51,723 nt of DNA from an uncultured bacterium (GTDB lineage Bacteria; Desulfobacterota; Desulfobaccia; Desulfobaccales; 0-14-0-80-60-11). Of this stretch, positions 3,071 to 24,597 are shown one piece after another. Both the position numbers and the translations under genes were made by a program. Numbering within the stretch: position 1 is the first letter of the stretch; each line of letters opens with the position of its first letter. The DNA is taken from contig CALEAV010000005.1 of the NCBI GenBank assembly GCA_937943575.1, positions 1 to 51,723 of the forward strand. Direction: 5' to 3'. A model generated the notes under the pieces. It worked only from the letters and a program-made list of their open reading frames with translations. It searched no databases and was not told where the DNA came from.

Positions 3071-4996
3071 ATGATCACCGTCCGGTTGGAGAACGGCGCC
3101 AGCCGCCAATGTGAGCCCGGCATCAGTGCCGGCCGGGCGCTGGCGGAGCTGGGGGCCTTCGGCAACCACCACGTGGTGGCGGTCAGGGTGGACGGAGAAC
3201 TCAGCGACCTCAGCCGGCCGCTGATCCGGGATTGCACCCTGGCCCCGGTAAGGGACGACACCCCCGAGGGGCTGGAGATCCTCCGGCATTCCACCTCCCA
3301 CCTCATGGCCGAGGCGGTGCGGGATCTTTTCCCCCAAGCCAAGGTGGCCATCGGCCCGGCCATTGAATCGGGATTTTATTACGATTTTGACGTCCCGGAA
3401 CCCTTCAGCCCCGAGGATCTCCCCCGCATCGAAGCCCGGATGGCTGAACTGGCGGCCCGGGATCTGCCCTTTATCCGGGAGGAGGTGCCCAAGGAAGAAG
3501 CCCTCCGGCTTTTCCAGGAACAGGGCGAGGTCTACAAGGTGGAGCTCCTGCAGGAGATCGACCAGGAGCGGGTCAGCCTCTACCGCCAGGGGGATTTCGT
3601 GGACCTCTGCCGGGGGCCGCATGTGCCCTCCAGCGGCTACCTCACCGCCTTCAAGCTCACCAGCATCTCCGGGGCCTACTGGCGGGGGGACGAGCGCCGG
3701 CCCATGCTGCAGCGCATCTACGGCACCGCCTTCCCCACCCGGGAGGAGCTGGAGCAGCACCTGCTGCTCCTGGAGGAGGCCAAGCGCCGGGATCACCGCC
3801 GGCTGGGCCGGGAGCTGGGGCTGTTCACCCTCGAGGAGGAGGCCGGCCCGGGCTTGGTCATCTACCATCCCAAGGGGGCGCTCCTGCGCAGCCTGCTGGA
3901 GGACTTCGAACGCCGCCAGCACCTGAAGCGGGGCTACCAGATGGTCATGGGCCCCCAGATGCTCAAGGCCGAGCTCTGGGGCCGCTCCGGCCACCTGGAG
4001 AACTACCGGGAGCACATGTACTTCACCGAGGTGGAGGGCGTCCAATACGGCCTCAAGCCCATGAACTGCGTGGCCCATATGCTCATCTACAAATCCCGGG
4101 TGCGCAGCTACCGGGAGCTGCCGTTGCGCTTCTTTGAGCTGGGCACGGTGCTGCGCCATGAGCGCTCCGGCGTCCTCCACGGCCTCACCCGGGTGCGGCA
4201 GTTCACCCAGGACGATGCCCATATCCTGTGCACCCCGGAGCAGGTGGAGGGGGAGATCCTGGGGGTGCTGGACTTCGTGGCCGACGTCATGGCCATCTTC
4301 GGCTTTGACTATGAGGTGGAGCTCTCCACCCGGCCGGAGAAGTCCATCGGCACCGACGCCGACTGGGAACTGGCCACCAACGCCCTGATCGGCGCCCTGA
4401 ACCGCAAGGGCCTCCCCTTTGCCGTCTGCGAGGGCGAGGGCGCCTTTTACGGCCCCAAGATCGACATCAAGCTCAAGGACGCCCTTAACCGCCGCTGGCA
4501 GTGCGCCACCATCCAGTGCGACTTCACCCTGCCGGAGCGCTTTGATCTCACTTACGTGGGCCCCGATGGCGGCCGACACCGGCCGGTGATGCTCCACCGG
4601 GTGATCCTGGGCTCCCTGGAGCGCTTTTTGGGGGTGCTCATCGAGCACTATGCCGGGGCCTTCCCCATGTGGCTGGCCCCCGTCCAGGTGATTCTTTTGC
4701 CCATCACCGAGCGGGTGCATCCTTACACCCTGGAGGCGGCGGAGAAGCTTCGGGCCGCCGAGCTGCGGGTGGAGGTGGATCTGCGCCCCGAGACCCTGCG
4801 CTACAAGATCCGGGAGGCCCAGGGGCAGAAAATTCCCTACATGGCGGTGATCGGAGACCGGGAGGCGGCCCGGGGCACCCTCTCCCCCCGGCTCCGGGAC
4901 GGCACCGAGCTCAAGGACGTCCCCCTGGAAGAGTTCATCTCCCGGCTGGTGGCGGAGAGCCGGGTGCCGGAACCGGCACGGTCCCAAAATCCCTAA
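3071..4996 (+). CDS. thrS: Threonyl-tRNA synthetase
   Basis: Class II cytoplasmic synthetase that charges tRNA-Thr. The 641 residues match the usual length. An N-terminal TGS domain (about 1-60) is followed by the editing domain with HSTSH (73-77). The catalytic core shows MNCVAH in place of the usual MNCPxH, then [12 protein letters not shown] and [13 protein letters not shown], and an anticodon-binding domain closes the chain. The start MITVRLENG is the normal start of the family. No Shine-Dalgarno is visible: the T-tract of a terminator-like hairpin sits just upstream. First gene of thrS-infC-rpmI-rplT-pheS, a conserved bacterial order. Confidence 0.97.
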
Positions 4997-5003
4997 GGAG
5001 GTG
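4995..5003 (+). promoter_or_regulatory. Strong Shine-Dalgarno that fixes the infC start at AUC
   Basis: AAGGAGGTG overlaps the thrS stop codon and stands 5 bases before the in-frame ATC at 5009. It is 20 bases before the next conventional candidate, GTG at 5024, which is too far for initiation. The spacing therefore selects ATC. Confidence 0.75.
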
Positions 5004-5008
5004 CGGTC

Positions 5009-5524
5009 ATCCAGAAACAGCGTGTGCGGATCAATCAGCAGATCAGGGCGCCGGAGGTCCGGCTCATCGGCCCTGACGGCCAGCAGGTGGGCATCGTGCC
5101 GTTAAAGGAGGCCTTGGCCTACGCCGCCGAGCACAATCTGGACCTGGTGGAAGTGGCCCCCATGGCCACCCCGCCGGTCTGCCGGGTCATGGACTACGGC
5201 AAGTTCAAGTACGAGCAGGCCAAGAAGCAGCAGGAGGCCCGGCGCCGGCAGACCACCATCCAGGTGAAGGAAGTCAAGATCCGGCCGAAGATCGAAGAAC
5301 ACGACATGGCCTTCAAGCTGAAAAACATCCGCCGCTTTCTGGCCGACAAGGACAAGGCCAAGATCACCATGATCTTCCGGGGCCGGGAGATGGCCCACCA
5401 GGACCGGGGCTATGCCATCCTGCGCCGCATGGCCGAGGAGCTGGCGGATGTGGCCGTGGTGGAGCAGGAACCCAAAGCCGAAGGCCGCACTCTGTTTATG
5501 ATCGTCGCCCCCAAAGCCACCTGA
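5009..5524 (+). CDS. infC: Translation initiation factor IF-3, probable AUC start
   Basis: IF-3 binds the 30S subunit and rejects non-canonical start codons. The chain has the IF-3 N-domain (RINQQIRAPEVRLIGPDG), the MDYGKFKYEQAKK linker and the C-domain (VKEVKIRPKIEEHD, FRGREMAHQ). From the ATC at 5009 it is 171 residues. The frame is open back to the thrS stop with no ATG, and the Shine-Dalgarno at 4995-5003 suits ATC far better than GTG at 5024. E. coli infC starts with AUU and Myxococcus xanthus infC with AUC, which lets IF-3 repress its own synthesis. The same feedback is inferred here. Confidence 0.93.
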   Translation: MQKQRVRINQQIRAPEVRLIGPDGQQVGIVPLKEALAYAAEHNLDLVEVAPMATPPVCRVMDYGKFKYEQAKKQQEARRRQTTIQVKEVKIRPKIEEHDMAFKLKNIRRFLADKDKAKITMIFRGREMAHQDRGYAILRRMAEELADVAVVEQEPKAEGRTLFMIVAPKAT

Positions 5525-8080: not shown

Positions 8081-8740
8081 TCAACCGCCTTTTGCCTGCG
8101 CCTGCCCGAAGTCGCAAAATGGCAAAAGTGGGCAGGCCGGACACATGGGTTTGCGGGCAGTGCAGATCTGCCGCCCGTGCCAGATCATCTGGTGCGAAAA
8201 GCTCGTCCATTTCTCCCGGGGGATGAGCTCCATGAGCTCAAACTCGATCTTCACCGGGTCCTTCTGGCGGGTGAGCCCCAGGCGCTGGGCCACCCGGCCC
8301 AGGTGCGTGTCCACCATGATGCCCGGGATCCCGAAGGCGTTGCCCAGGATGACGTTGGCGGTCTTGCGGCCGATGCCGGGGAGCTTGACCAGGTCGTCCA
8401 GGGAGGGGGGTATCTCACCCCCGAACTTCTCCACCAGCCCCTGGCAGATGGCCTTCAGCGCCTTGGCCTTGTTGTGGTAAAAGCCGGTGGGCCGGATGGC
8501 CGCCTCCAGCTCCTCCAGGGGGGCGGCGGCCATGGCCGCGGCATCGGGATACCTGCGGAAGAGCTCCGGGGTCACCTGGTTGACCCGCTCGTCGGTGCAC
8601 TGGGCCGACAGCACCGTGGCCACCAGCAGCTCCCAGGGGTTGCGGAAATCCAGGGTGCAGTGGGCCGTGGGGTAGTGCCGCTCCAGGAGCTCCAGAATGG
8701 CTGCCGCCTTGTCCCGCAGGGGCAGGCGCTCTCCTGTCAT
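8081..8740 (-). CDS. nth: Endonuclease III (DNA glycosylase/AP lyase)
   Basis: Base excision repair enzyme that removes oxidised pyrimidines and cleaves at the abasic site. The helix-hairpin-helix LPGIGRKTA carries the catalytic Lys126, and the catalytic Asp144 lies in MVDTHLGR. The C-terminus has the 4Fe-4S ligands C193-x6-C200-x2-C203-x5-C209, exactly the family pattern. It has 219 residues and a clear AGGAGG ribosome site. It is downstream of murJ on the same strand, separated by 81 bases. Confidence 0.97.
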   Translation of the reverse strand: MTGERLPLRDKAAAILELLERHYPTAHCTLDFRNPWELLVATVLSAQCTDERVNQVTPELFRRYPDAAAMAAAPLEELEAAIRPTGFYHNKAKALKAICQGLVEKFGGEIPPSLDDLVKLPGIGRKTANVILGNAFGIPGIMVDTHLGRVAQRLGLTRQKDPVKIEFELMELIPREKWTSFSHQMIWHGRQICTARKPMCPACPLLPFCDFGQAQAKGG

Positions 8741-8821: not shown

Positions 8822-10411
8822 TCAACCCCCTTCCGGCCGCCGGAGAACAAGGCGCAGGGCATCCCGGGCTTCGGGAATATTCAGGTGGAGGATGAGCACC
8901 CCATACACCCCCATGCCGGTGGCGACGGCGGCGGCCACCGCCAGGAGGCGCCCTACCACCCCCCCAGGCAGGAGGCCGGCCGCTAAATCATGCACCGTCA
9001 CCGCCGCCAGGGCCATCACGAGAGTGGCCAGCCCCACCCGGGCCAGGGTGAGGAGCAGCTCCTTCAGAGGCAGGCCCTCAAGCCGCCGGTGGAGCAGGGC
9101 CAGGAGAAAGAGCAGGCTGACATTGCTGGCCAGGGACATGGACAGGGCGATGGCCCGGTGCTCAAGGGCCTCCAGGGTGAGGTTGATGAACAGCAGATTG
9201 GCGGCCACGGTGAGGAAACTCCCCGCCACCGGGACGGCCGTGTTGTTTAAGGCATAAAAGACGGGCACCAGGATCTTGCTGCCGGAGAAGGCCATGAGCC
9301 CCAGGGTGTAAAACCTCAGGGCCGCGGCGGTCTGCTGGGTGTCGTAGGCGGTGAAGCGCCCGTACTGGTAGATGAGGGCGCAGATGGGCTCGGCCAGCAC
9401 CGCCAGGCCGGCGGCGGCGGGGAGGGTGAGGAGCATGGCCAGGGACAGGGCGGAGCGGCAGGCGTCCCGGAGCCCGGGCAGGTCGCGGCGGGCCGCCAGG
9501 CGGGAGGCCAGGGGCAGGGTGGCCACCGACAGGGCCACCCCGAAGAGCCCCTGGGGCAGGTGATCCAGGCGGTAGGCGTAATTGAGCCAGGAGATGGAGC
9601 CCTCCGGGCAGCGGGCGGCGTAGAAGGTGTTGATGAAGATGTTGATCTGGGACGCCGACAGCCCCAGCACGGCGGGGAGCATCAGGCGGAAGATCCGGCG
9701 CAGGCCCGGGTCCCAGGGGTCGCACACCACCCGCAGGCGGAAGCCCACCCGGAAAAGCAGGGGGAGCTGGACGAGAAGCTGGAGCAGGCCGCCGATGAGG
9801 GTGCCCACCGCCATGCCCACGATGGGGGGCTGCCCCAGGGAAGGCGCCAGGAAACTCAGTCCCACCCCGGCCACGATGGAGCCCAGATTGAAGAAGCTGG
9901 AGGCCAGGGCCGGAAGGAAGAACCTCCCCTTGGTGTTGAGGATGCCCATGACCAGCGCGGCCAGGGAGACCAGGAGGAGAAAGGGGAACATGATGCGGGT
10001 CATGAGGGCGGTGAGCTCCAGCTTCCCCGGCACCCGGCCGAAATCCGGCGCCATCAGCCCCACCAGGGCGGGGGAGAAGTAGACCCCCGCCAGGGTGAGG
10101 CTGCCCACCACGATCATCAGGCAGATGAGGACATTGTTGGCCAGCCGCCAGGTGCGCTCCGGCCCCTCCTTGGCGTCATACTGGGAAAAGACGGTGACAA
10201 AGGCGGTGCTGAGGGCCCCCTCGGCGAAGAGGTCCCGGAGGAGATTGGGGATGCGGAAGGCCACCACAAAGGCGTCGATGGCCCGGCCGGCGCCGAAGAA
10301 GCCGGCAAAGACCTGCTCCCGTACCAGGCCCAGGACCCGGCTGATGAGAACTGCCAGGCTCATGCTGCCGGCGGCCCGGGCGATGTTTTGGGTGGGCGGG
10401 GTGGCACTCAC
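8822..10411 (-). CDS. murJ: Lipid II flippase MurJ (MviN)
   Basis: Polytopic inner-membrane protein of the MOP superfamily that flips lipid II for peptidoglycan synthesis. The 529 residues are almost entirely hydrophobic helices, about 14. The N-terminal SLAVLISRVLGLVREQVFAGFFGAG and the RIPNLLRDLFAEGALSTAFV block are diagnostic of MurJ. It stands between the Lys/Pro-rich membrane protein and nth on the minus strand; no other cell-wall genes are nearby. Confidence 0.96.
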   Translation of the reverse strand: MSATPPTQNIARAAGSMSLAVLISRVLGLVREQVFAGFFGAGRAIDAFVVAFRIPNLLRDLFAEGALSTAFVTVFSQYDAKEGPERTWRLANNVLICLMIVVGSLTLAGVYFSPALVGLMAPDFGRVPGKLELTALMTRIMFPFLLLVSLAALVMGILNTKGRFFLPALASSFFNLGSIVAGVGLSFLAPSLGQPPIVGMAVGTLIGGLLQLLVQLPLLFRVGFRLRVVCDPWDPGLRRIFRLMLPAVLGLSASQINIFINTFYAARCPEGSISWLNYAYRLDHLPQGLFGVALSVATLPLASRLAARRDLPGLRDACRSALSLAMLLTLPAAAGLAVLAEPICALIYQYGRFTAYDTQQTAAALRFYTLGLMAFSGSKILVPVFYALNNTAVPVAGSFLTVAANLLFINLTLEALEHRAIALSMSLASNVSLLFLLALLHRRLEGLPLKELLLTLARVGLATLVMALAAVTVHDLAAGLLPGGVVGRLLAVAAAVATGMGVYGVLILHLNIPEARDALRLVLRRPEGG

Positions 10412-11231: not shown

Positions 11232-11421
11232 TCCCCTAAAAATGTTCAGAATGAGTAAATCCGGACATGCAAGCCGAAGCAGGCGCAGGGGTCCGGGGAG
11301 GAGCCAGGGGTGGTGAGACCCTGCCCTCTCCGCCTCCCCCATGAGCTTATTCAGGGAAAACACAGTTTCTTCCCAGGGATTCCCCTGTCAGAATCTTGAC
11401 GCCCGCAGTAATTTGAGGTAC

Positions 11422-12849
11422 ATGAGTCTCATGGCCCAGCGACCCGGCATTCTGCTTGTGGAGGATGACCCCAGCCAACGGGAGCTCCTGGCCGGGATTC
11501 TCCGGCAGGAGGGCTTTGAGGTGGAGGCGGTGGCCGACGGCGAAACCGGCCTGGCCCGCCTCCAGGAAAGCCCCTTCGACCTGGTGCTCACCGACCTCAT
11601 CCTCCCGGGGCTGAGCGGTCTGGACCTCTTGTCCCATATCGTCCGCCATTGGCCGGAGACCAAGTGCATCATCCTCACCGGCTTTGCCACGGTGAAAAAT
11701 TCCGTCACCGCCATGCGCCTGGGGGCCTATGACTACCTGCAGAAGCCGGTGGACCGCCAGGAACTGGGTCTGGTGGTGCGCCGGGCCCTGGAGCATCGGC
11801 GCCTGCAGCAGGAAAACCTGCGCCTGAAAAAACAGCTGCACCGGCGCTACGGCTTCGCCAACATCATCGGCGCCAGCGAGCCCATGCAGCAGGTCTTCGA
11901 GCTGGTGCGCAAGGTGGCGGACAGCGACTCCACCGTGCTGATCCTGGGGGAATCCGGCACCGGCAAGGAGCTCATCGCCCGGGCCCTGCATTACAACAGC
12001 CCCCGGCGCCACGGCCCCCTCATCCCGGTGAACTGCGCCGCCATCCCCGAGGAGCTCCTGGAGAGCGAACTCTTCGGGCACGAGCGGGGCGCCTTCACCC
12101 ATGCGGTGCGCACCCGCATCGGCCGCTTCGAGCAGGCCAACGGCGGCACCATCTTCCTGGATGAGATCGCCGACATGAGCCCCACCCTGCAGGTCAAGAT
12201 CCTCCGGGTCCTGCAGGACCGGGCCTTTGAGCGCATCGGCGGGGTGAAGACCATCCGGGTGGACATCCGGGTCATCGCCGCCACCAACCGGGACCTGGAG
12301 GCCCTGGTGAAGGCCGGCCGGTTCCGGGAGGACCTCTTCTACCGCCTCAACGTCATCCCCCTGAAGATTCCCCCGCTGCGGGAACGGGCCTCGGACATCC
12401 CGCTCCTGGCGGCCCATTTCCTCCAGGAGTTCTGCCGCCGGCGCAAGACGCCCCTCAAACGCCTCAGCCCCGAGGCCCTGGAGCTCCTCCTCAGATACCC
12501 CTGGCCGGGAAACGTCCGGGAGCTGGAGAATCTCATGGAGCGGCTGGTGATTCTCTGCGAGGGCGAGGTGATCCGCCCCGGGGATCTGCCGGAGCGCTTC
12601 CAGCCCCTGCCCCCCGTCTCCCTTCCGGAACCGCCGCCGGACTTCCCGCCGGAGGGCATCTCCCTCACCGAGGCGGTGCAGGACTTCGAGCGCCGCCTCA
12701 TCCTCAAGGCCCTGGAAAAGAGCCGCTGGGTGAAGAGCCGGGCCGCCCAGCTCCTGCATCTCAACCGCACCACCCTCATCGAGAAGATGAAGAAACAGAA
12801 GATCGCCACCCCTCCGGATCTGCCCCCCCTCCCCAAACAGTTCCTCTGA
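11422..12849 (+). CDS. Sigma-54-dependent response regulator with intact receiver and GAFTHA loop
   Basis: NtrC-type activator of 475 residues from the ATG at 11422 (GAGGT box just upstream; ATG 11431 is an alternative). The receiver domain has the acidic pocket VEDD, phospho-acceptor Asp58 in LVLTDLILPG, and the LQKPVD lysine. The AAA+ domain has Walker A GESGTGKE, ESELFGHERGAF and Walker B TIFLDEIADM. A Fis-type helix-turn-helix with LNRTTLIEKMKK, like FleQ/FlrC, ends the chain. The sigma-54 contact loop reads GAFTHA (223-228) instead of GAFTGA. It stands before the flagellar genes, so a motility role is likely. A terminator follows. Confidence 0.92.
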   Translation: MSLMAQRPGILLVEDDPSQRELLAGILRQEGFEVEAVADGETGLARLQESPFDLVLTDLILPGLSGLDLLSHIVRHWPETKCIILTGFATVKNSVTAMRLGAYDYLQKPVDRQELGLVVRRALEHRRLQQENLRLKKQLHRRYGFANIIGASEPMQQVFELVRKVADSDSTVLILGESGTGKELIARALHYNSPRRHGPLIPVNCAAIPEELLESELFGHERGAFTHAVRTRIGRFEQANGGTIFLDEIADMSPTLQVKILRVLQDRAFERIGGVKTIRVDIRVIAATNRDLEALVKAGRFREDLFYRLNVIPLKIPPLRERASDIPLLAAHFLQEFCRRRKTPLKRLSPEALELLLRYPWPGNVRELENLMERLVILCEGEVIRPGDLPERFQPLPPVSLPEPPPDFPPEGISLTEAVQDFERRLILKALEKSRWVKSRAAQLLHLNRTTLIEKMKKQKIATPPDLPPLPKQFL

Positions 12850-12914: not shown

Positions 12915-12929
12915 GTCAATAAATTGACA
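12914..12929. repeat. 16-base palindrome, possible operator
   Basis: TGTCAAT and ATTGACA flank a central AA; all 14 arm bases pair. A further TTGACA stands at 12943-12948. The site is about 215 bases upstream of the sigma-54-type promoter at 13144, a distance at which enhancer-binding proteins act. Apart from this and the neighbouring promoter and terminator, the 12850-13185 gap shows no gene. Confidence 0.4.
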
Positions 12930-13143: not shown

Positions 13144-13159
13144 TGGTATGCCTCTTGCT
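13144..13159 (+). promoter_or_regulatory. Sigma-54 (-24/-12) promoter candidate
   Basis: TTGGTATGCCTCTTGCT has the invariant GG (13145-13146) and GC (13157-13158) exactly 10 bases apart and the full TTGC of the -12 element. Transcription would start near 13170, just before the AGGAGG (13174-13179) of the small secreted-protein gene at 13186. Confidence 0.6.
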
Positions 13160-13185
13160 TCTTTGATGCCACCAGGAGGCCTGGA

Positions 13186-13518
13186 ATGCGGCAACGGCGA
13201 CTTTCCCGGTTTTGGCTGCTGTCCGTCGGAGTCTGGCTCCTGTTCCTTCCCTCCCCCGCCGGGGGCCCGGCGGCCGCCGGCTCCCGGCCCGACGCAACCG
13301 GGGTGCATGTCATCCTCTCCCGGGAGTTCTTCGAGGCCTTAAGCCGCCTGGAGCGCGCCCCGGGAGTCACCTACGGCGACCGCCAGGAGGCCCTCCTGGA
13401 AAAGATCGCCCTCTCCTGCCAGTATCTGGTCAAGACCAACCTCACCCTCATCGAACAGCAGGAGCGCCTCCTCCGGCTGCTGGAGAGGCAGGGCGCCGCC
13501 CGGGGTCAGGAGCGCTGA
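13186..13518 (+). CDS. Small secreted protein of unknown function in the flagellar locus
   Basis: Not recognised. The 110-residue product starts at an ATG 6 bases after AGGAGG. It has a signal peptide (RQRRLSRFWLLSVGVWLLF, cleavage probably after an Ala-rich stretch near 31) and a helical mature part rich in Leu and Glu. The last 45 residues (EALLEKIALSCQYLVK, LIEQQERLLRLLERQ) look like a coiled coil with one Cys. It is the first gene behind a sigma-54-type promoter and is one base away from the next gene, so it is probably co-expressed with the flagellar regulator. A periplasmic role in flagellum assembly is inference. Confidence 0.65.
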   Translation: MRQRRLSRFWLLSVGVWLLFLPSPAGGPAAAGSRPDATGVHVILSREFFEALSRLERAPGVTYGDRQEALLEKIALSCQYLVKTNLTLIEQQERLLRLLERQGAARGQER

Positions 13519-13519
13519 C

Positions 13520-14899
13520 ATGCGGGGTCTCACGGGAGCGGGGGCGGGCAGGCGGTGCCGGAAGGAAACCGACACTCTCCCATCACCATGTGCAGGCAGA
13601 GGTCTGCCGGGACCGGGGGCGGGCCCCGGGGGCGGGGAATCCCTCATCCTGCGGCCCCGGCACCGGCTCCTCCGGGGGCTCACCCTGGGGGCGGTGGTGC
13701 TCCTGGTGCTTGTCGGGTCTGCGGAAGTCTGGGCTCACAGCCGCACCCGGCATGCCTCCCCGCCCCTGCCGGCTGCGCCCCGCCCTGCCGCCCCCGCCCC
13801 GACCCGGGGCCAGGCCCCGGAGACTGACCCCCTGCGGTGGCAGGACCTCTTCCGGGAGGTCAATGTCCGGGGGCTGAAGGCCGAGGAGGCCTCCCTCCTC
13901 CTCCAGGTCGCCCGGCTGGCCGGGGAGCGCGGCGAGCTGGCCCACGCCCGCTGGGCCTACCGTCTCCTGCTGCAGCTCTTCCCCGGGACCGACCTTGGGG
14001 CCCGCGCCTGGCGGGAGCGGCTCGTGCTGGACTTTTATCAGGAGCTGGCGGAGGTGCCCGGGATTTCCGCCTGCCGCCGGTTGGTTCATCAGTTGCTGCA
14101 GAACCCGAAAGCCGCCCAGGCACCGGTGGTGCGCCAGGCCCTGCGGGAGGGCTGGCGGGCGGTGGAGCAGCAGCTCATGGGGAAAGGGCCTTTTCCGCCC
14201 CCGGTGGCCGAGCAGCTCCTGGAATTGTGGGAGCTGACCCCCGCCGGGATGCGGCCGCCGGAGGCCAAGCTGCTTTTGGCCCGGCTTTTTCAGGACCGGG
14301 GGCTGCCGGGGGAGGCCCGCCAGCTCCTGGAGCAGGTGGCGGCCGGCGGGGAGGAGCACCTCAGGCGGGAGGCCACCGCCCGGCTGCTGGAGCTCGCCTG
14401 GGCGGAGCAGGGCCTGGGCGGTTTCTTGGCGGCGCTGGCCCACCTGCAGACCACCACCTCGGCGGCCGTGCAGGCGCTGTGGACCTGGCCCCTTAACCTG
14501 GAGGGCTCCCCGGCGGTGGTCATGGCGGCCTCTGTGGACCTGACCCTGTCCCCGGCCCTTCGTCTGCAGCTGTGGGAGGCCCTCAGCGGGCAGCCCCTGC
14601 CCGGGCCCCTTACCCTGTATCTTCTGGGGGACCTGGCCCGGATGGCCAAGGCCGGGGAGAATGTCCACAAGGCGGCGGCCCTCTACCATGAGGTCCTGGA
14701 GACCGCCAGGGAGAATCTGGGGCCCGGCTACTATTATGACCGGATCGGCCTGGAGCATCTGCGGCAGCGGGAGTGGCTGGCAGCCCAGGAGGCCTTCCAG
14801 GCCCAGACCCAGGCTGAGGATCCCCTCTGGCAGCAGCTGGGCCGGGTGCGGCTGATGGAGGTGGAGCTGGCCCAAATTCAGGCCGGGGGGCCACGTTGA
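13520..14899 (+). CDS. Membrane-anchored helical-repeat protein of unknown function
   Basis: Not recognised by name. The 459-residue product has a basic N-terminus, one membrane helix (about 56-72, LTLGAVVLLVLVGSAEVW), a Pro/Ala-rich linker and then about 350 residues of alpha-helical repeats of TPR type (for example ELAHARWAYRLLLQLFP and GENVHKAAALYHEVLE). The body would be periplasmic. An AGGAG box precedes the ATG by 7 bases; the upstream gene ends one base before. It is followed 16 bases later by the FleQ-like regulator, so it probably belongs to the same sigma-54-driven operon. Confidence 0.65.
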   Translation: MRGLTGAGAGRRCRKETDTLPSPCAGRGLPGPGAGPGGGESLILRPRHRLLRGLTLGAVVLLVLVGSAEVWAHSRTRHASPPLPAAPRPAAPAPTRGQAPETDPLRWQDLFREVNVRGLKAEEASLLLQVARLAGERGELAHARWAYRLLLQLFPGTDLGARAWRERLVLDFYQELAEVPGISACRRLVHQLLQNPKAAQAPVVRQALREGWRAVEQQLMGKGPFPPPVAEQLLELWELTPAGMRPPEAKLLLARLFQDRGLPGEARQLLEQVAAGGEEHLRREATARLLELAWAEQGLGGFLAALAHLQTTTSAAVQALWTWPLNLEGSPAVVMAASVDLTLSPALRLQLWEALSGQPLPGPLTLYLLGDLARMAKAGENVHKAAALYHEVLETARENLGPGYYYDRIGLEHLRQREWLAAQEAFQAQTQAEDPLWQQLGRVRLMEVELAQIQAGGPR

Positions 14900-14915: not shown

Positions 14916-16289
14916 ATGACCAAGAAGCTTCTGCTGATCATCGATCCTCACCCTCTGTGGCGGGAGATCCGAGACCTCCTTAGGCGAACCCACCAGGTGG
15001 AAACCCAGCAGGTCCCCAGCCCGGAGGCGGCCGGGGAGCTGCTCCGGGAGCAGGAGTTTTTGGCCATCTTCCTGGCCGAGCCCCTGGGGGGGGCCTTGCC
15101 GGCCCTCAAAGGGGAGCTCCCCACGGTGCCGGTGTTTGTCTTCTCCCCCCGCCCCACGGTGGCGGGCGCGGTGGCAGCCATGCGGGAGGGGGCTCAGGAT
15201 TACCTGGGCTTCCCCCCGCCCCCGGACCGCCTGGCGGAACTGCTGCGGCCCTATCTCTCGGCCCCGACGGACAGCCCCGCCCCGGGACGTTCCCGGCCCG
15301 GCGAGCGCAGCACGCCCCGTCCCTTCATCACCCAGGACCCGGCCGTGCTCCGTCTGCTGGAGATGGCCAGGGCTGTGGCGCCCACCCGGGCCACGGTGCT
15401 CATCCAGGGGGAGTCCGGCACCGGCAAGGAGGTCCTGGCCCGGCTGCTGCACCAGGAGAGCGACCGGGCGGCGGGGCCCTTTGTGGCAGTGAACTGCGCC
15501 GCCCTGCCGGAGGGCCTCCTGGAGAGCGAACTCTTCGGCCACGAAAAGGGGGCCTTCACCGGCGCCATCATGCGCAAGCTGGGGAAATTCGAGCTGGCCC
15601 AGCACGGCACCCTGCTTTTGGATGAGATCAGCGAGATGCACCCCCACCTGCAGGCCAAGCTCCTGAGGGTCCTCCAGGAAAACGAAATCGACCGGGTGGG
15701 CGGCCGCACCCCCATCCCCGTGGATGTGCGGGTGGTGGCCACCACCAACCGGGACCTCACCGAGCTGATGCAGAAGGGGGAATTCCGGGAGGACCTCTAC
15801 TACCGGCTCCAGGTCATCACCTTCACCCTGCCGCCCCTGCGGGAGCGCCCCGGGGACATCCCCCTGTTGGCACAGTATTTCCTGGAGCGCTACTCCCAGC
15901 TCTTCGGCAAGGGGCCCCTCAGCTTCACCAGCTCGGCGCTCCGGGCCCTGGAGGCCGCCGCCTGGCCCGGCAATGTCCGGCAGTTGGAGAACGCCGTGGC
16001 CCGGGGGGTGCTCCTGGCCGCCACCCGCTATGTGCACCCCAGGGACATCTTCGGGGAGATGCCCCCGGCCGTCCCCGGCCCCGAGGTCCGGCTCCCGACC
16101 CCGGCAAAGCCGGTCACCCTGCGGGAAATGGAACAGAGCATGATCTTCCAGGCCCTGAAGGAGACCTCGGGCAACCGCACCCATGCCGCCAAGCTGTTGG
16201 GGATCAGCGTCCGCACCCTTAGGAACAAGCTGCACGAATACCGGCAGGAGCAGCAGCGCCCGCCGGCGTGCCGCTCCCAGGTGGCGTGA
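14916..16289 (+). CDS. Sigma-54 activator with degenerate receiver, FleQ/FlrC-like
   Basis: 457-residue activator. The first about 110 residues keep the receiver fold (LLLIIDPHPLWREIRDLL, GAQDYLGF), but the phospho-acceptor position is Phe52 and the conserved lysine is Phe99, so it cannot be phosphorylated in the usual way. The AAA+ core is normal: GESGTGKE, ESELFGHEKGAFTGA with intact sigma-54 loop, LLLDEISEM. A Fis-type helix-turn-helix (NRTHAAKLLGISVRTLRNKL) ends it. FleQ of Pseudomonas likewise lacks phosphorylation. The next genes are flgB and flgC, so it is probably the flagellar activator. A sigma-54 promoter overlaps its stop codon. Confidence 0.9.
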   Translation: MTKKLLLIIDPHPLWREIRDLLRRTHQVETQQVPSPEAAGELLREQEFLAIFLAEPLGGALPALKGELPTVPVFVFSPRPTVAGAVAAMREGAQDYLGFPPPPDRLAELLRPYLSAPTDSPAPGRSRPGERSTPRPFITQDPAVLRLLEMARAVAPTRATVLIQGESGTGKEVLARLLHQESDRAAGPFVAVNCAALPEGLLESELFGHEKGAFTGAIMRKLGKFELAQHGTLLLDEISEMHPHLQAKLLRVLQENEIDRVGGRTPIPVDVRVVATTNRDLTELMQKGEFREDLYYRLQVITFTLPPLRERPGDIPLLAQYFLERYSQLFGKGPLSFTSSALRALEAAAWPGNVRQLENAVARGVLLAATRYVHPRDIFGEMPPAVPGPEVRLPTPAKPVTLREMEQSMIFQALKETSGNRTHAAKLLGISVRTLRNKLHEYRQEQQRPPACRSQVA

Positions 16290-16297
16290 AACTTGCT
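16282..16297 (+). promoter_or_regulatory. Sigma-54 promoter candidate for flgBC-fliEF
   Basis: TGGCGTGAAACTTGCT has GG (16283-16284) and GC (16295-16296) with 10 bases between, TGGC at -24 and TTGC at -12. It overlaps the stop codon (16287-16289) of the sigma-54 activator gene and faces flgB. Confidence 0.65.
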
Positions 16298-16588
16298 TGG
16301 GAAAGGGCGACAGGAGGAGGGCGGAGCAGGGGCAGAAGGGAAGGAGGGGGAATCGGTCAGGGCCTGGATGTTCGCTTGGGATCTGATACACCAGGGCACG
16401 GGCAGGAGGGGACGCGAGGGAGGGTCTTGCCCCGGGAGCCAGGGAGTCCCGGCCACCCCGGGGTGGGAAAGGGGCCTTGGCCCCGTAACCCGGCGGACCT
16501 GAAAGAAACCGACCCCAAACGGAGGGAGACGGGCGGCAACTCCCCCGTGCTCCCCGGAGAGCGGCAATCTTTGCCCAGGAGGTTTCCC
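16298..16588 (+). other. Untranslated stretch before flgB
   Basis: About 290 purine-rich bases (repeated GGGAGG/GGAGG tracts) would form a long 5' leader if transcription starts near 16308. No gene or clear terminator is seen. The AGGAGG at 16577-16582 is the flgB ribosome site. Confidence 0.4.
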
Positions 16589-16969
16589 ATGAGCTGGGAT
16601 CCCCTTGCCGAGCCGGTGACCCGGCTGCTGGCGCACAGCCTTAGGCTGAGCAGCCGGAGCCAGGAGGTCATCGCCGGCAACATCGCCAATCTGGACACGC
16701 CGGGCTACACCGCCCGGGAGTTCCCCTTTCAGGAGGTGCTCCGCCAGTATGTGGCGGGGAGCGGACCCCTGACCCCGATCCGGACCCACCCGGGCCATCT
16801 CAGCCCGCCCCTGGCGGCCGGCCTGGTGGAGAACCGGGGCGAGCCCGTGGACCTGGACCAGGAGATGGTGCGGCTGGGGGAAAACCTTTTCCGATTCCAG
16901 AGCGCCGTGCAGCTCCTCAACCGTAAGCTGGAGGGGCTGCGCAGCGTCCTTGAGGGAGGCAGACCGTGA
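16589..16969 (+). CDS. flgB: Flagellar basal-body rod protein FlgB
   Basis: Proximal rod subunit exported through the flagellar type III apparatus. The ATG lies 6 bases after AGGAGG. The 126 residues contain the rod-protein signature NIANLDTPGYTAREFPF near residue 32 and a C-terminal helix (LGENLFRFQSAVQLLNRKLEGLRSVL) that packs with the N-terminal helix. Its stop overlaps the GTG start of flgC by 4 bases, so the two are translationally coupled. Confidence 0.95.
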   Translation: MSWDPLAEPVTRLLAHSLRLSSRSQEVIAGNIANLDTPGYTAREFPFQEVLRQYVAGSGPLTPIRTHPGHLSPPLAAGLVENRGEPVDLDQEMVRLGENLFRFQSAVQLLNRKLEGLRSVLEGGRP

Positions 16970-17385
16970 CCTTGCTGGCCAGCATGAAGATCAGCGCCGC
17001 GGGCTTGAGCGCCCAGCGGCAGCGCCTGAACGTCATCGCCGAGAATCTGGCCAACGTCCACACCACCCGCACCCCGGAGGGGGGCCCCTACCTCAAAAAG
17101 CAGGTGGTGCTGGAGAGCCGGCCGCCGGAGGACTTCGCCGGCCTGCTTTCGGAGGCCGAGTCCGTGGCGGTGGCGGGTGTGACCCGCACCGCAGAAGGCC
17201 TGCGGCCGGAATATGATCCCACCCACCCTGATGCCGACGAACAGGGCCTGGTGTTGTGGCCCAACGTCAATCCGGTGACCGAGATGGTGAGCCTGACCCT
17301 GGCCACCCGGGCCTTCGAGGCCAACGTGGCGGTGCTCAAGGCCGCCCGGGCCATGCTGCAGAAGTCCCTGGAGATCGGGCGGTAG
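16966..17385 (+). CDS. flgC: Flagellar basal-body rod protein FlgC
   Basis: Rod subunit next to FlgB, 139 residues. It starts at GTG inside the flgB stop codon. It shows the family blocks MKISAAGLSAQRQRLNVIAENLANV and the C-terminal NVNPVTEMVSLTLATRAFEANVAVLKAARAM. The loop TPEGGPYLKKQVVL is normal for FlgC. It is followed by a 184-base gap with no recognisable feature before fliE. Confidence 0.96.
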   Translation: MTLLASMKISAAGLSAQRQRLNVIAENLANVHTTRTPEGGPYLKKQVVLESRPPEDFAGLLSEAESVAVAGVTRTAEGLRPEYDPTHPDADEQGLVLWPNVNPVTEMVSLTLATRAFEANVAVLKAARAMLQKSLEIGR

Positions 17386-17569
17386 CCCGCAACGGGCGGG
17401 AACGGAGGCAAAAATGGGGACGGGGGGGACAGCTGACTGGGATCCGGGCTGTCCGGACTTTCCCGGCTGAGGTCGATGAGGTGAAAGAGGCCGCCGGGCG
17501 GCAAAGCGGACAGGGGGCGGGGGGAGGGCCGAGCCGTGGGCCCCACCCTGCGGCCAGGAGGAGGGGAGC

Positions 17570-17854
17570 ATGAAGATTCTGCCGGAGATGGGAGCAGGAC
17601 AGGGGGTTGCGCCTTTGAGCCCGGAGTCTGCCGCCACACCCCCCGGGGCCGGGGAGTTCAGGCGCCTGCTCACCCAGGTGATCGACTGGCAGCAGGAGGC
17701 CGACCAGGCCATCCGCCAGTCCCTGCTGGGGGAGAAGGACCTGCATGAGGTCATGCTGGCCCTGGAGCGGGCCTCCTTGGGGGTCAAGGTCCTGGTCCAG
17801 GTGCGTAACAAGGTGCTGCAGGCCTACGAAGAACTGAGCCGCATGAGCCTGTAA
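17570..17854 (+). CDS. fliE: Flagellar hook-basal body protein FliE
   Basis: Adaptor between the MS ring and the rod. The 94 residues end with the typical ASLGVKVLVQVRNKVLQAYEELSRMSL and contain LLGEKDLHEVMLALERA. A GGAGGAGGGG ribosome site precedes the ATG. It lies 7 bases before fliF, in the order flgB-flgC-fliE-fliF usual in bacteria. Confidence 0.94.
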   Translation: MKILPEMGAGQGVAPLSPESAATPPGAGEFRRLLTQVIDWQQEADQAIRQSLLGEKDLHEVMLALERASLGVKVLVQVRNKVLQAYEELSRMSL

Positions 17855-17861
17855 ACCCGCC

Positions 17862-19502
17862 ATGGGCGCCCTGACCGCTTACCTGGAGCAGCTCAAGCAG
17901 CGGTTCCTGGCTTTGCCCCTCCCCCACCGGCTGGTGGCCGGGGCGCTGGCCGGGGCCGGGGTCCTGGCCCTCCTCTTTCTCCTGCTCATGAGCAGCCCGG
18001 GGGAATACGGGGTCCTGTTTGCCAACCTCTCCCAGGAGGATGCGGCGGCCATCGTCGCCAAGCTGCGCAACAAAAAGATCCCCTACCGCCTGGAGGCCGG
18101 GGGCACCTCGGTTCTGGTCCCCAAAAATGAGGTCTATGAGCTCCGGCTGCTTCTGGCGGGCGAAGGCATCCCCAAAGGGGGCGGGGTCGGCTTTGAGATC
18201 TTCGACCGGCAGAACCTGGGGGTGACGGATTTTGTGCAGCGCCTCAACTACCAGCGGGCGCTGCAGGGGGAGCTGGCCCGCACCCTCACGGGCATCCCCG
18301 AGATCGCCGAGGCCCGGGTGCACATCGTCACCCCCAAGGAGTCCCTGTTCCTGGAGGACCAGCAGAAGGCCAGCGCCTCGGTGGCGGTGAAACTCCGGCC
18401 CGGCCGCCGTCTGAGCCCCCAGCAGATCGACGGCATCGTCCATCTGGTGTCCAGTGCGGTTCCGGGACTCAGTCCCGGCCAGGTGACGGTGGTGGACCTG
18501 GAGGGCCGCATCCTGAGCAAACCCCCGGACACCCTCACCCCCGGGGGCCTGAGCACCGCCCAGATGAGCTTTCAGCGCCAGGTGGAGGAGGGCTACGAGC
18601 GCAAGCTCCAGTCCCTCTTCGACCAGCTGCTGGGCCCCCAGAAATCCGTCATCCGGGTGACTGCGGAGCTGGATTTCCAGAAGATCGACATCCGGGAGGA
18701 GACCTTCACCCCCAACCGGGATCTCGTGCGCAGCGAGCAGAAGAACCTGGAGCGCTCCACCCGGGGGGTGGAGGGGGGCAACCCGGAAGCCCGCTTCGAC
18801 CTCAACCAGGGGACCATCACCCCGCCGCCGCCGGGGAAAGGGCCGCCCCCCCTCACCCCTCCGGCCCCGGCCAAACCGGCGGGCACCACCATGAGCGAGC
18901 GCCAGAGCGAGGTACGCAACTACGAGCTCAACCGGGTGCTGCGCCAGGTGGTGGACCAGCCGGGCAAGATCCGGCGCCTCTCCCTGGCGGTGGTGGTGGA
19001 CGGCACCTACCCGGAGAAGACCAAGGCCTTCACCCCCCGGCCGCCGGAGGAGCTGCGCCAGTTTGCCAACCTGGCCAAAAAGGCGGTGGGGTTCGACCCG
19101 GAGCGGGGGGACCAGCTGGAGATCACCTGCGCGCCTTTGGCCTCCCAGGTGCCGGAAGGGGTGGGGGCCAGCGCCGCCGACAGCTGGCAGGACGGCTGGC
19201 GGCGTTCCCTGACGGTGGGCGCGGTCCTGCTCCTGGTGCTCTTCGCCCTCATGGTCCTTTTGCACCGGAAACGCCGGGCGGCCCGGCCGCCCCTTTTAGA
19301 GGTCCCCCAACAGCCGTCTCTGCCGGCGCCCCCGGAAGCGGCGGGGGAATTGCCCCCCGAAGCCCCGCCGCCCCGGCTGCGCCCCGCCCCGCCTGCGCCC
19401 CTGCCCGATGCGGTGGAGGGCCAGGAGAAGGTGGCCCAGCTGGTGGCGGCCTACCCCGAGCGGGCCGTGGAAGTCCTTCGCCTCTGGCTCCAGGAACGCT
19501 GA
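17862..19502 (+). CDS. fliF: Flagellar MS-ring protein FliF
   Basis: Inner-membrane ring on which the flagellum is built. The 546 residues have an N-terminal membrane helix (about 24-46), the YscJ-type ring-building region with VLFANLSQEDAAAIVAKL, QRLNYQRALQGELARTL and ARVHIVTPKESLF, a Pro-rich insert near 320-345, and a second membrane helix (about 449-467). A cytoplasmic tail ends QEKVAQLVAAYPERAVEVLRL, the segment that binds FliG. It follows fliE by 7 bases; 289 non-coding bases with a sigma-54-type promoter separate it from fliG. Confidence 0.96.
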   Translation: MGALTAYLEQLKQRFLALPLPHRLVAGALAGAGVLALLFLLLMSSPGEYGVLFANLSQEDAAAIVAKLRNKKIPYRLEAGGTSVLVPKNEVYELRLLLAGEGIPKGGGVGFEIFDRQNLGVTDFVQRLNYQRALQGELARTLTGIPEIAEARVHIVTPKESLFLEDQQKASASVAVKLRPGRRLSPQQIDGIVHLVSSAVPGLSPGQVTVVDLEGRILSKPPDTLTPGGLSTAQMSFQRQVEEGYERKLQSLFDQLLGPQKSVIRVTAELDFQKIDIREETFTPNRDLVRSEQKNLERSTRGVEGGNPEARFDLNQGTITPPPPGKGPPPLTPPAPAKPAGTTMSERQSEVRNYELNRVLRQVVDQPGKIRRLSLAVVVDGTYPEKTKAFTPRPPEELRQFANLAKKAVGFDPERGDQLEITCAPLASQVPEGVGASAADSWQDGWRRSLTVGAVLLLVLFALMVLLHRKRRAARPPLLEVPQQPSLPAPPEAAGELPPEAPPPRLRPAPPAPLPDAVEGQEKVAQLVAAYPERAVEVLRLWLQER

Positions 19503-23275: not shown

Positions 23276-23303
23276 ACCGGTCCGTGCACCGAATGATCCA
23301 AGA

Positions 23304-23415
23304 CCCGGCTCCGGAGCCGGGGGCGCCGCAACCCTTGTGGTGGACGCCGGCCAGCTCCTCACTGACAAAATCACCGGCCCCGGCTCCGGTGCCGAAGCTC
23401 GGGCAACCCTTGTGG
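23304..23415. repeat. Imperfect direct repeat between fliJ and the MotE-like gene
   Basis: Copy 1 (23304-23340) and copy 2 (23379-23415) are about 37 bases long, 75 bases apart. Each begins CCCGGCTCCGG and ends GCAACCCTTGTGG. The CGGCTCCGGAGCCG part of copy 1 is itself palindromic. The rest of the 397-base gap is GC-rich with repeated GGCAAAGG words and holds no credible gene. Confidence 0.6.
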
Positions 23416-23672
23416 AAGGGGGGCCATGGGTATGGCAGGGGCGAGGCAAAGGGGGACGGGGACGTGGCAAAGGAGCCGGAGGCTTGCCAAGGGAACAGAA
23501 GGATGGCCGCCCCGTATAAAGGGGATCCCCGGCATGGCAAAGGGGCGGGGGGGCAGCGGCGACCAGGCTTCCCTCCGGGGATGGCCTGACGGCTTTGAGG
23601 GCCTGGGGTGGCGGCAGAGTAACACAGCCGGCTCCGGCATCTCCCGGGGCCGGGAGGTTTCCGGGGAGGAAG

Positions 23673-24242
23673 ATGTCCATGATAAGGGAAGGCAGCCTGC
23701 AGATGAGCCATGGCATCATGGGGGGCTTCCTGATCGTCGGCCTGCTCGCCAAGATGGGCCTCACCGCCGTCTGGCTGAGCCCTTCGGGGGCCTGGCTCCT
23801 CCAGGGTCCCCGGGTGAGTGAGGCGGCCACCCCGGCGGAGGCCCGTCCGGTGGAGAGCGGCGCCCTGCCCCGGCTGGCCTCCCTCCTCCAGCAGCAGCGG
23901 CAGTCCCTCTCCGCCCGGGAGGCCGCCCTGGCCCTGAGGGAGGAGCAGCTCCGCCAGGTGCGCCAGGAAGTGGAGCAGCGCCTGCGGGAACTCCAGGCCC
24001 TGCAGACCCGCATCCTGGAGGCCATTGAGGAGGAGAAGCGCATCAAAGGGGAGCATCAGCGGCACCTGGCCGCCACCCTGGAGGCCATGCCCCCGGACAA
24101 GGCCGGCAGACTCCTGGAAAAGATGGAGGAGGAGATCGCCGTCCAGCTGCTCAGGCGGCTCAAGGGCAAGGAGGCCGGGGCCATCCTCACCCACCTGGCC
24201 CCGGACAAGGCCGCCCGCCTCAGCCAGCGGCTGCTGCAGTGA
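23673..24242 (+). CDS. MotE-like flagellar protein with MgtE_N-type C-terminus
   Basis: Probable member of the COG3334/MotE group found next to fliJ in many bacteria. The 189 residues have an N-terminal membrane helix (about 14-40), a long coiled coil (about 70-130, EEQLRQVRQEVEQRLRELQ) and a C-terminal MgtE_N-like domain (AATLEAMPPDKAGRLLEKMEEEIAVQLLRRLKGKEAGAIL, LAPDKAARLSQRLL). GGGGAGGA precedes the chosen ATG by 2 bases; ATG 23703 is an alternative. In other species such proteins assist motor or export-apparatus assembly. It ends the flagellar block. Confidence 0.82.
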   Translation: MSMIREGSLQMSHGIMGGFLIVGLLAKMGLTAVWLSPSGAWLLQGPRVSEAATPAEARPVESGALPRLASLLQQQRQSLSAREAALALREEQLRQVRQEVEQRLRELQALQTRILEAIEEEKRIKGEHQRHLAATLEAMPPDKAGRLLEKMEEEIAVQLLRRLKGKEAGAILTHLAPDKAARLSQRLLQ

Positions 24243-24597
24243 ACCGCCGCCATGTCGGCCCGGGCCGGCAAGGGCATTGGCCCACCGGTCAGGACAAGGC
24301 AGCGGGCACCGGCAGCCCCCGGGGGCCGACAAGCCCGCCGGACGGAGGCGGCAGGGGAACGGCTCCGGGTCCGGGCCCTACCCGGCCCACCCTGGGGGGA
24401 GTCTCATCCATCCTTTCTTGCCCACGGCCTTGCGGGGCCAGGGACCGGCCGCTCCGGCCCGCTTCGCGGCCCCTTCCCGCCGAGTGTTGACCACCGCGCC
24501 GGGCGCACCCTTTTCCCTCCCCCCATTGGTTTTCCCTTGATTCTCCGGGGGACCGGTTTATGATAAAATCTGATTGACTGGAAGTCGTTCATTTCCT
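24243..24597. other. Gap with no recognised feature
   Basis: 355 bases, very GC-rich at first and more AT-rich near the end (24535-24597). No gene, RNA or convincing terminator is seen. The AT-rich end (TTTATGATAAAATC) may hold the yjbQ promoter, but no paired hexamers stand out. Confidence 0.3.

Follow-up and report, generated by a model that had tools for sequence, protein, structure and literature searches.

Periplasmic Scaffolds of the Flagellar Motor

PflA, the spoke protein of the Campylobacterota flagellar motor, has counterparts in MotC, MotK, FlcA/B, and CC_2058, according to the accessible portions of PMC11870540 and PMC13023049. The available part of the latter describes a scheme combining an E-ring made of FlgY with a TPR partner (spoke), and reports the stabilization of MotC by MotE. 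The former, a 2025 preprint, in its accessible part regards TPR proteins as potential homologs of PflA when their genes are no more than five away from a flagellar cluster, and mentions that the genes for FlgY/MotE/FlbB lie next to a TPR gene in some species. For Geobacter sulfurreducens, the RpoN regulon includes flgB-flgC, and that text contains no mention of "TPR" (PMC2725144).

Motor scaffolds beyond the model species are now being catalogued. The lists of motor parts are incomplete, since TPR and coiled-coil proteins evade sequence searches.

A Gene Pair Preceding the Basal-Body Genes

The window analyzed here, i.e., the whole stretch of DNA of 51,723 nucleotides, comes from a bacterium related to Desulfobacca, in which a pair of genes designated P1 and P2 is encoded directly 5′ of flagellar genes. 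A preliminary description of this DNA gave the coordinates, coupling, and context of the pair, all of which proved correct. The features concerned are the following:

11341–12849, + strand: REG_up, an NtrC/AtoC-type sigma-54 response regulator (Pfam Sigma54_activat and Response_reg)
12915–12928, no strand assigned: FleQ-type palindromic box GTCAATAAATTGAC, a candidate activator-binding site
13144–13159, + strand: sigma-54 (−24/−12) promoter-like site TGGTATGCCTCTTGCT, the sole exact match to TGGYAYRNNNNTTGCW in the window
13174–13179, + strand: Shine-Dalgarno-like AGGAGG, 6 bases 5′ of the P1 start (read from the sequence)
13186–13518, + strand: P1, 110 aa, with a leader peptide, a short helix, and a long C-terminal helix
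13520–14899, + strand: P2, 459 aa, with a leader peptide and a divergent TPR solenoid, a PflA-like candidate
14916–16289, + strand: FlbD/FleQ-like sigma-54 activator with a degenerate receiver (Sigma54_activat 1.5e-70, HTH_8)
16282–16297, + strand: candidate sigma-54 site TGGCGTGAAACTTGCT before flgB, with 1 mismatch (such mismatched sites are no more numerous in the window than expected by chance)
16571–19502, + strand: flgB, flgC, fliE, and fliF, the first basal-body genes (Pfam Flg_bb_rod in two, Flg_bbr_C, FliE, and YscJ_FliF, all above cut-off)
23595–24242, + strand: FlgY/MotE-type E-ring homolog shortly 3′ of fliJ (C-terminal MgtE_N, E 7e-07, 30.2 bits vs. a cut-off of 25.9)

The Pfam scan of REG_up began at the in-frame codon 11431. 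The activator gene is characterized by a weak Response_reg match (Pfam, E 0.0043), and its top NCBIfam model is FlbD, with 425 bits, below the cut-off of 750. The activator is followed by flgB, flgC, fliE, fliF, and then by fliG and fliI; flgB and flgC were distinguished by gene order and length, and fliF was identified via TIGR00206. The middle part of the FlgY-type protein is coiled-coil-like (by eye) and its counterparts were found by blast in L127, L152, and L156; the MgtE_N domain is not specific to FlgY, as FliG matches it as well (Pfam). Between fliJ and a UPF0047 gene, the FlgY-type gene has a small open frame on either side, 23284–23589 (101 aa) and 24252–24563 (103 aa), and Pfam gave no match at E ≤ 0.1 for these two.

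Both P1 and P2 are real coding genes under purifying selection, since the dN/dS values among three congeners amount to 0.24–0.34 for P1 and 0.39–0.54 for P2. A single base separates the two genes in the window and, with the window included, in 9 of the order's 14 pairs, which suggests translational coupling; the gap ranges from −8 to +61 across these pairs with the starts chosen here. The named records that contain relatives of P1 come from metagenome assemblies, which bear the labels Desulfobacca, Syntrophobacterales, Syntrophales, or Deltaproteobacteria.

Putative Promoter Elements and Regulation of the Pair

The sigma-54-type promoter proposed earlier in front of the pair corresponds to an exact promoter-like site, and an exact match is present 5′ of P1 in all 14 loci of the order: 39–49 bases from the P1 start in 13 of them and 291 bases in the remaining one. 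When up to two mismatches to TGGYAYRNNNNTTGCW are allowed, the window has no more matches than chance would give (17 observed vs. 20.1 expected). In the P1–TPR loci of other families, the site 5′ of P1 carries one mismatch. Before 13 TPR genes without P1, the site was exact in five cases, had one mismatch in six, and was absent in two.

The palindrome GTCAATAAATTGAC, which starts 229 bp upstream of the start of the sigma-54 site, has no mismatches to the Pseudomonas aeruginosa FleQ consensus GTCaNTAAAtTGAC, a consensus from another phylum quoted in the accessible part of PMC6120874, and it fits the description of the box in the available portion of PMC10723142. Nowhere else does the window come within two mismatches of this consensus, the mean number in 100 shuffles being 0.08. 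The same portion of PMC6120874 states that most genomic matches to the FleQ consensus in P. fluorescens F113 are absent from the binding data. What the window shares with the sigma-54 flagellar promoters and FleQ boxes of Pseudomonas is a box identical to the published consensus and located upstream of a −24/−12 site; the differences lie in the phylum, in FlbD as the top model of the activator, and in the box being a candidate only. Further palindromes of the FleQ-box type, GTCAGAATCTTGAC and GTCAATCCGGTGAC, occupy positions 11387–11400 (near the REG_up start) and 17266–17279 (within flgC), respectively.

A shortened form of the box (GTCAA-N5-TGAC or its mirror, within 450 bp upstream) was found in 24 of the 26 P1–TPR loci, i.e., 12 of 14 in the order and 12 of 12 in other families, and was not found before P1 in two loci of the order. 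Its distance to the sigma-54 site in the P1–TPR loci varies from 88 to 260 bp, falling within 112–139 bp in 19 of the 24. The shortened box precedes 4 of the 13 TPR genes without P1; four loci in which P1 stands apart from the TPR gene yielded no such box 5′ of P1, one of them having just 89 bases upstream. The overall count of the shortened form was 49 in 576 kb, many of these being ones already counted above. Judging from the box, the sigma-54 site, the conserved operon order, and the flagellar co-occurrence of the pair, the neighboring FlbD/FleQ-like activator would switch on its own gene and the operon jointly at an early stage.

The coupling of the pair to the activator gene and to the FleQ-type box also brings to mind a checkpoint, in which the exported proteins would sense the assembly of the basal body and control the activator. 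This appears very improbable: proteins of the activator family act in the cytoplasm, no domain tying the pair to the activator was found in Pfam or NCBIfam, and the order TPR gene–activator–flgB survives in genomes with no P1 match. Of the two roles suggested in the preliminary description, that of a periplasmic scaffold is plausible, and that of an assembly checkpoint has gained no support of its own.

P2 and the Syntenic TPR Proteins

In 9 of the 14 aligned members of the P2 family, the leader ends in [AV]-x-A, resembling a signal peptidase I site (by eye), so P2 is more likely a secreted than a membrane-anchored protein, and the anchoring assumed in the preliminary description is doubtful. 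About 45 residues preceding the hydrophobic stretch of the leader (window positions 13520–13650) are wholly or partly absent in two congeners, and the start of P2 is uncertain.

The TPR matches of P2 itself are below the Pfam cut-offs (TPR_7, E 0.0021), and TPR_14 was detected at E ≤ 0.01 in 11 of the 14 aligned members. The AlphaFold2 model of P2 is an all-helical solenoid with a mean pLDDT of 77.5. Foldseek returned generic TPR proteins, the Campylobacter jejuni motor scaffold 9hmf_K ranking 44th (E 2.8e-3, TMq 0.32), and the best VIA Z of the structure search (11.2) is within the range common for helical repeats. Two other assignments of P2 were rejected. CpoB/YbgF, the coordinator of Tol-Pal, is a periplasmic TPR protein, and P2 resembles it by a weak TIGR02795 match (E 0.051); the score is 14.2 bits against a cut-off of 90.1, and the setting of P2 is flagellar. 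The family of the FimV/HubP C-terminal domain (TIGR03504) was matched with 18.5 bits against a cut-off of 30.65.

The regions before fliF were compared in 20 other flagellated genomes. In 14 of them, a TPR gene was recognized by blast (the frame in L116 being doubtful), and eight of these genes lie directly 5′ of the activator. Against the P1 profile, ORFs of 60 aa or more from the 20 regions gave no match with an E below 0.12. In two loci from two other families (L117, positions 9199–10287; L122, positions 4029–5108), a gene whose product has a receiver-like C-terminus (by reading) is located 5′ of the TPR gene; from there to flgB, these loci gave no match to an FlbD/FleQ-like activator.

The P2 profile aligned to the long TPR proteins with a probability of 98.7 and an E of 1.8e-16. 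Since any TPR proteins align with each other, a control comparison was carried out, in which 15 syntenic proteins were set against seven frames taken from TPR loci elsewhere in the same genome (some truncated, and L136 evidently a wrong frame). With the full P2 profile, the control L131 (23.6 bits) outscored 9 of the 15 syntenic proteins. At least six of the 15 syntenic proteins (L069, L115, L110, L117, L119, and L122) matched the C-terminal block of P2 at their extreme C-terminus, and none of the seven control frames did so at its own C-terminus; the truncated control L137 matched most of the block internally, as did some syntenic proteins. It is solely this C-terminal block that favors homology between P2 and the long TPR proteins.

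P2 is similar to PflA in being a TPR-type protein with a leader encoded in a flagellar cluster (P2, the activator, and flgB follow one another in the window, within the limit of five genes), and the genome also harbors a FlgY-type gene. At the same time, P2 differs from PflA in its length of 459 aa, its weak repeats, and the lack of a domain N-terminal to the TPR part; P2 is also missing the additional N-terminal region that the longer TPR proteins have. The AMIN domain was absent among the best 25 of the 65 families listed for 11 long TPR proteins, and no PflA chain was present among the best 60 of the 72 PDB sequences listed for the P2 profile. The designation of P2 as "PflA-like" is therefore backed by position, fold class, and a partner gene, not by specific homology, and P2 as PflA is a guess as to its function. 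P2 would be the order's shortened form of the TPR protein that many flagellated members of the phylum encode at this place.

P1, a Small Helical Protein

P1 had no matches among the Pfam and NCBIfam families at E ≤ 1, and its relatives had no credible matches in these collections; scattered matches of single relatives differed from member to member and were regarded as chance. A search of the PDB sequences with the P1 profile gave nothing credible, the hits being "Design construct" proteins with E of 0.18 or worse. By these comparisons, P1 appears to represent a family matching no described one among Pfam, NCBIfam, and the PDB sequences, and no small partner of its kind was recognized among the papers listed by searches of open-licence PubMed Central on motor parts. 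The earlier statement that neither protein matches a known flagellar component stands for P1; P2 departs from it by fitting the class of TPR proteins that the accessible part of PMC11870540 treats as potential PflA homologs. Of the searches suggested at that time, a profile search gave no credible sequence match for P1, and Foldseek gave generic TPR proteins, without PflA being singled out, for P2.

P1 is probably a secreted small helical protein. Its AlphaFold2 model comprises a leader helix and helices at residues 46–56 and 67–109 (mean pLDDT 68.1, with high confidence in the last part alone). Residues F48, Y63, L71, N85, and L99 are invariant in 26 aligned members. Read in one register, the long helix has hydrophobic a/g positions from residue 74 onwards and mostly polar d positions, two of which are occupied by Asn85 and by Asn/Gln92, each in 15 of 15 aligned members. 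A helix with Asn at a d position is reminiscent of trimeric coiled coils.

Like FlgY/MotE/FlbB, P1 is small and helical, has a leader, and is encoded amid flagellar genes, but it differs from them in the lack of the MgtE_N domain. No C-terminal MgtE_N/ARM domain was found in P1 (no Pfam match at E ≤ 1) or in any of the 15 aligned members, and the window contains a separate FlgY-type gene at 23595–24242; the identity of P1 as a FlgY/MotE E-ring protein was thus ruled out.

Co-Occurrence of the Pair with Flagella

Among the 29 genomes of the order, some of them incomplete, 15 possess fliF. P1 and P2 were each reported in 15 of the 29, and after exclusions the same 14 genomes carry both. The P1 match excluded in G001 (E 0.007) covered the leader region only and had one stop; the P2 match excluded in G019 (E 0.001) covered only residues 29–92, i.e., the leader and an Ala/Pro-rich stretch. 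The link with flagellar genes proposed for checking in the preliminary description was borne out: the pair was found in 14 of the 15 genomes with fliF and in none of the 14 without it (Fisher 2e-7, without phylogenetic correction). In the exceptional genome, G013, which has fliF and no pair, the activator gene is located 275 bases from the contig start, so the pair may simply be unassembled. The order REG_up–P1–P2–activator is kept in all 14 loci, and flgB or fliF is on the same contig in 13 of them, just the activator being in view in the remaining one (G005). The near-even division of the order (15 genomes with fliF and 14 without, some incomplete) suggests repeated loss or gain of flagella.

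In a sample of 395 genomes of the phylum, 245 of which possess fliF, P1 was reported in 16 and counted in 15, all with fliF; the match excluded, in G239, had E 0.001, two stops, and a frame of 50 residues. A second profile yielded the same 15 genomes and six matches with E of 0.02–0.06, which were not counted. No counted P1 match was obtained in 230 of the 245 genomes with fliF, and so small a protein can escape detection. Overall, co-occurrence, synteny, and promoter elements lend strong support to a flagellar role of the pair.

Genomic Settings and Loss of P1

Family-level searches recovered P1 in 6 of 17 genomes of family f34, 2 of 5 of f39, and 8 of 46 of f50. With G473, which came from a search of 85 genomes at the class level, the total amounts to 31 genomes from six families. 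Together with the 14 of 20 other genomes having a TPR gene before fliF, this shows that the assumed restriction of the proteins to one lineage was wrong. Second P1 matches in G422, G447, G445, and G406 and the match in G060 were rejected as frames of about 440–460 aa resembling class II fructose-bisphosphate aldolases (by eye).

Three settings of P1 have been documented, namely before the TPR gene and the activator, between flgG and flgA, and beside flgY. The first is by far the most frequent: P1 is directly 5′ of the TPR gene in 26 of the 31 genomes, including G229, where a TPR frame of 967 aa overlaps the P1 stop, and G426 and G446, where the contig breaks off within the TPR gene, leaving no further flagellar gene in view. 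In G160, P1 is located between flgG and flgA (confirmed with Pfam), and the TPR gene is situated before fliE, away from P1; G210 displays the identical order by blast. In G417 and G447, P1 is convergent beside flgY, and the TPR gene stays before the activator.

The adjacency of P1, a small helical protein, to the TPR gene, along with the one-base gap in 9 of 14 pairs suggestive of translational coupling, would suit a dedicated chaperone or stabilizer of P2, for which MotE and MotC provide a precedent (accessible part of PMC13023049). This function seems unlikely: 13 of the 20 other loci have a credible TPR gene and no P1 match, and P1 and the TPR gene are separated in G160, G417, and G447. Since P1 is found apart from the TPR gene in the latter three genomes, it need not bind P2.

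Many chaperones are small and helical, as P1 is, and its location in G160 and G210 between the genes of the distal rod (flgG) and the P-ring chaperone (flgA), with the TPR gene of G160 elsewhere, before fliE, points to another function, that of a periplasmic assembly factor or stabilizer of the distal rod and P-ring, P2 being a separate scaffold that shares the operon. We consider it possible, on the whole not probable, given that P1 directly precedes the TPR gene in 26 of 31 genomes, is beside flgY in two, and has been mostly lost in G271, which still harbors flgB, flgC, fliE, and fliF.

The latter genome belongs to the same genus as G229. The middle of its P1 has been deleted, leaving a remnant of 27 codons (L105, positions 8300–8385; codons by reading), while a box, the promoter, the start of P1, and its stop, which runs into the start of the TPR gene, have all been retained. 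The TPR, activator, flgB, flgC, fliE, and fliF genes were recognized there. Because this flagellated congener has deleted most of P1, the protein is an accessory rather than a core part. P1 is optional, in that no match was obtained in the majority of the flagellated genomes sampled from the phylum, and one genome has deleted it.

The preliminary description had pointed to homologs away from flagellar genes as evidence against its proposal. One of the 31 P1 homologs is placed in this way, and 28 adjoin flagellar or flagellar-regulator genes in one of the three arrangements. The P1 of G473 (L181, positions 4799–5110) lies between ispD-like and nucleoside-phosphorylase-like genes (names read from ORFs), and no flagellar gene was found in 81 contig stretches of this genome (348,775 bases, about a fifth of it); a match of 29% to FliI was taken as an ATP synthase-type ATPase. 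This setting argues against a strict flagellar link and is not decisive. It would be expected if P1 were a general envelope protein that is merely often co-localized with flagellar genes, which is most improbable considering the 28 of 31 P1 genes that adjoin flagellar or flagellar-regulator genes and the presence of fliF in all 15 counted P1 carriers of the 395-genome sample.

Possible Role of the Pair and Its Implications

With moderate confidence, we regard P1–P2 as an accessory module of the flagellar basal body composed of a periplasmic scaffold, P2, and a new small helical partner, P1. Both proteins would be exported to the periplasm. There, P2 may serve as a PflA/MotC-like scaffold that starts at the E-ring (FlgY) and passes around the MS ring in the direction of the stators. 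The conserved C-terminal helix of P1, with its invariant Asn85 and Asn/Gln92, could self-associate or occupy the TPR groove, and P1 would reinforce or bridge the scaffold, the E-ring, or the distal rod/P-ring. Such a linker is put forward very tentatively and, taken as a specific role, has a low likelihood; the settings of P1 beside a spoke-type gene, flgY, and rod/P-ring genes match what it predicts. Among the functions considered, the linker fits the three settings of P1 best, the rod/P-ring assembly factor being a serious rival.

Synteny and a common promoter layout pick out a candidate TPR scaffold across many families of one phylum, and the same approach uncovers the small partner family P1, matched to nothing described. 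If this is true, P1 would represent a motor component predicted purely from genomes. Its presence in one species and its loss in a congener constitute a natural experiment on the role of P1.
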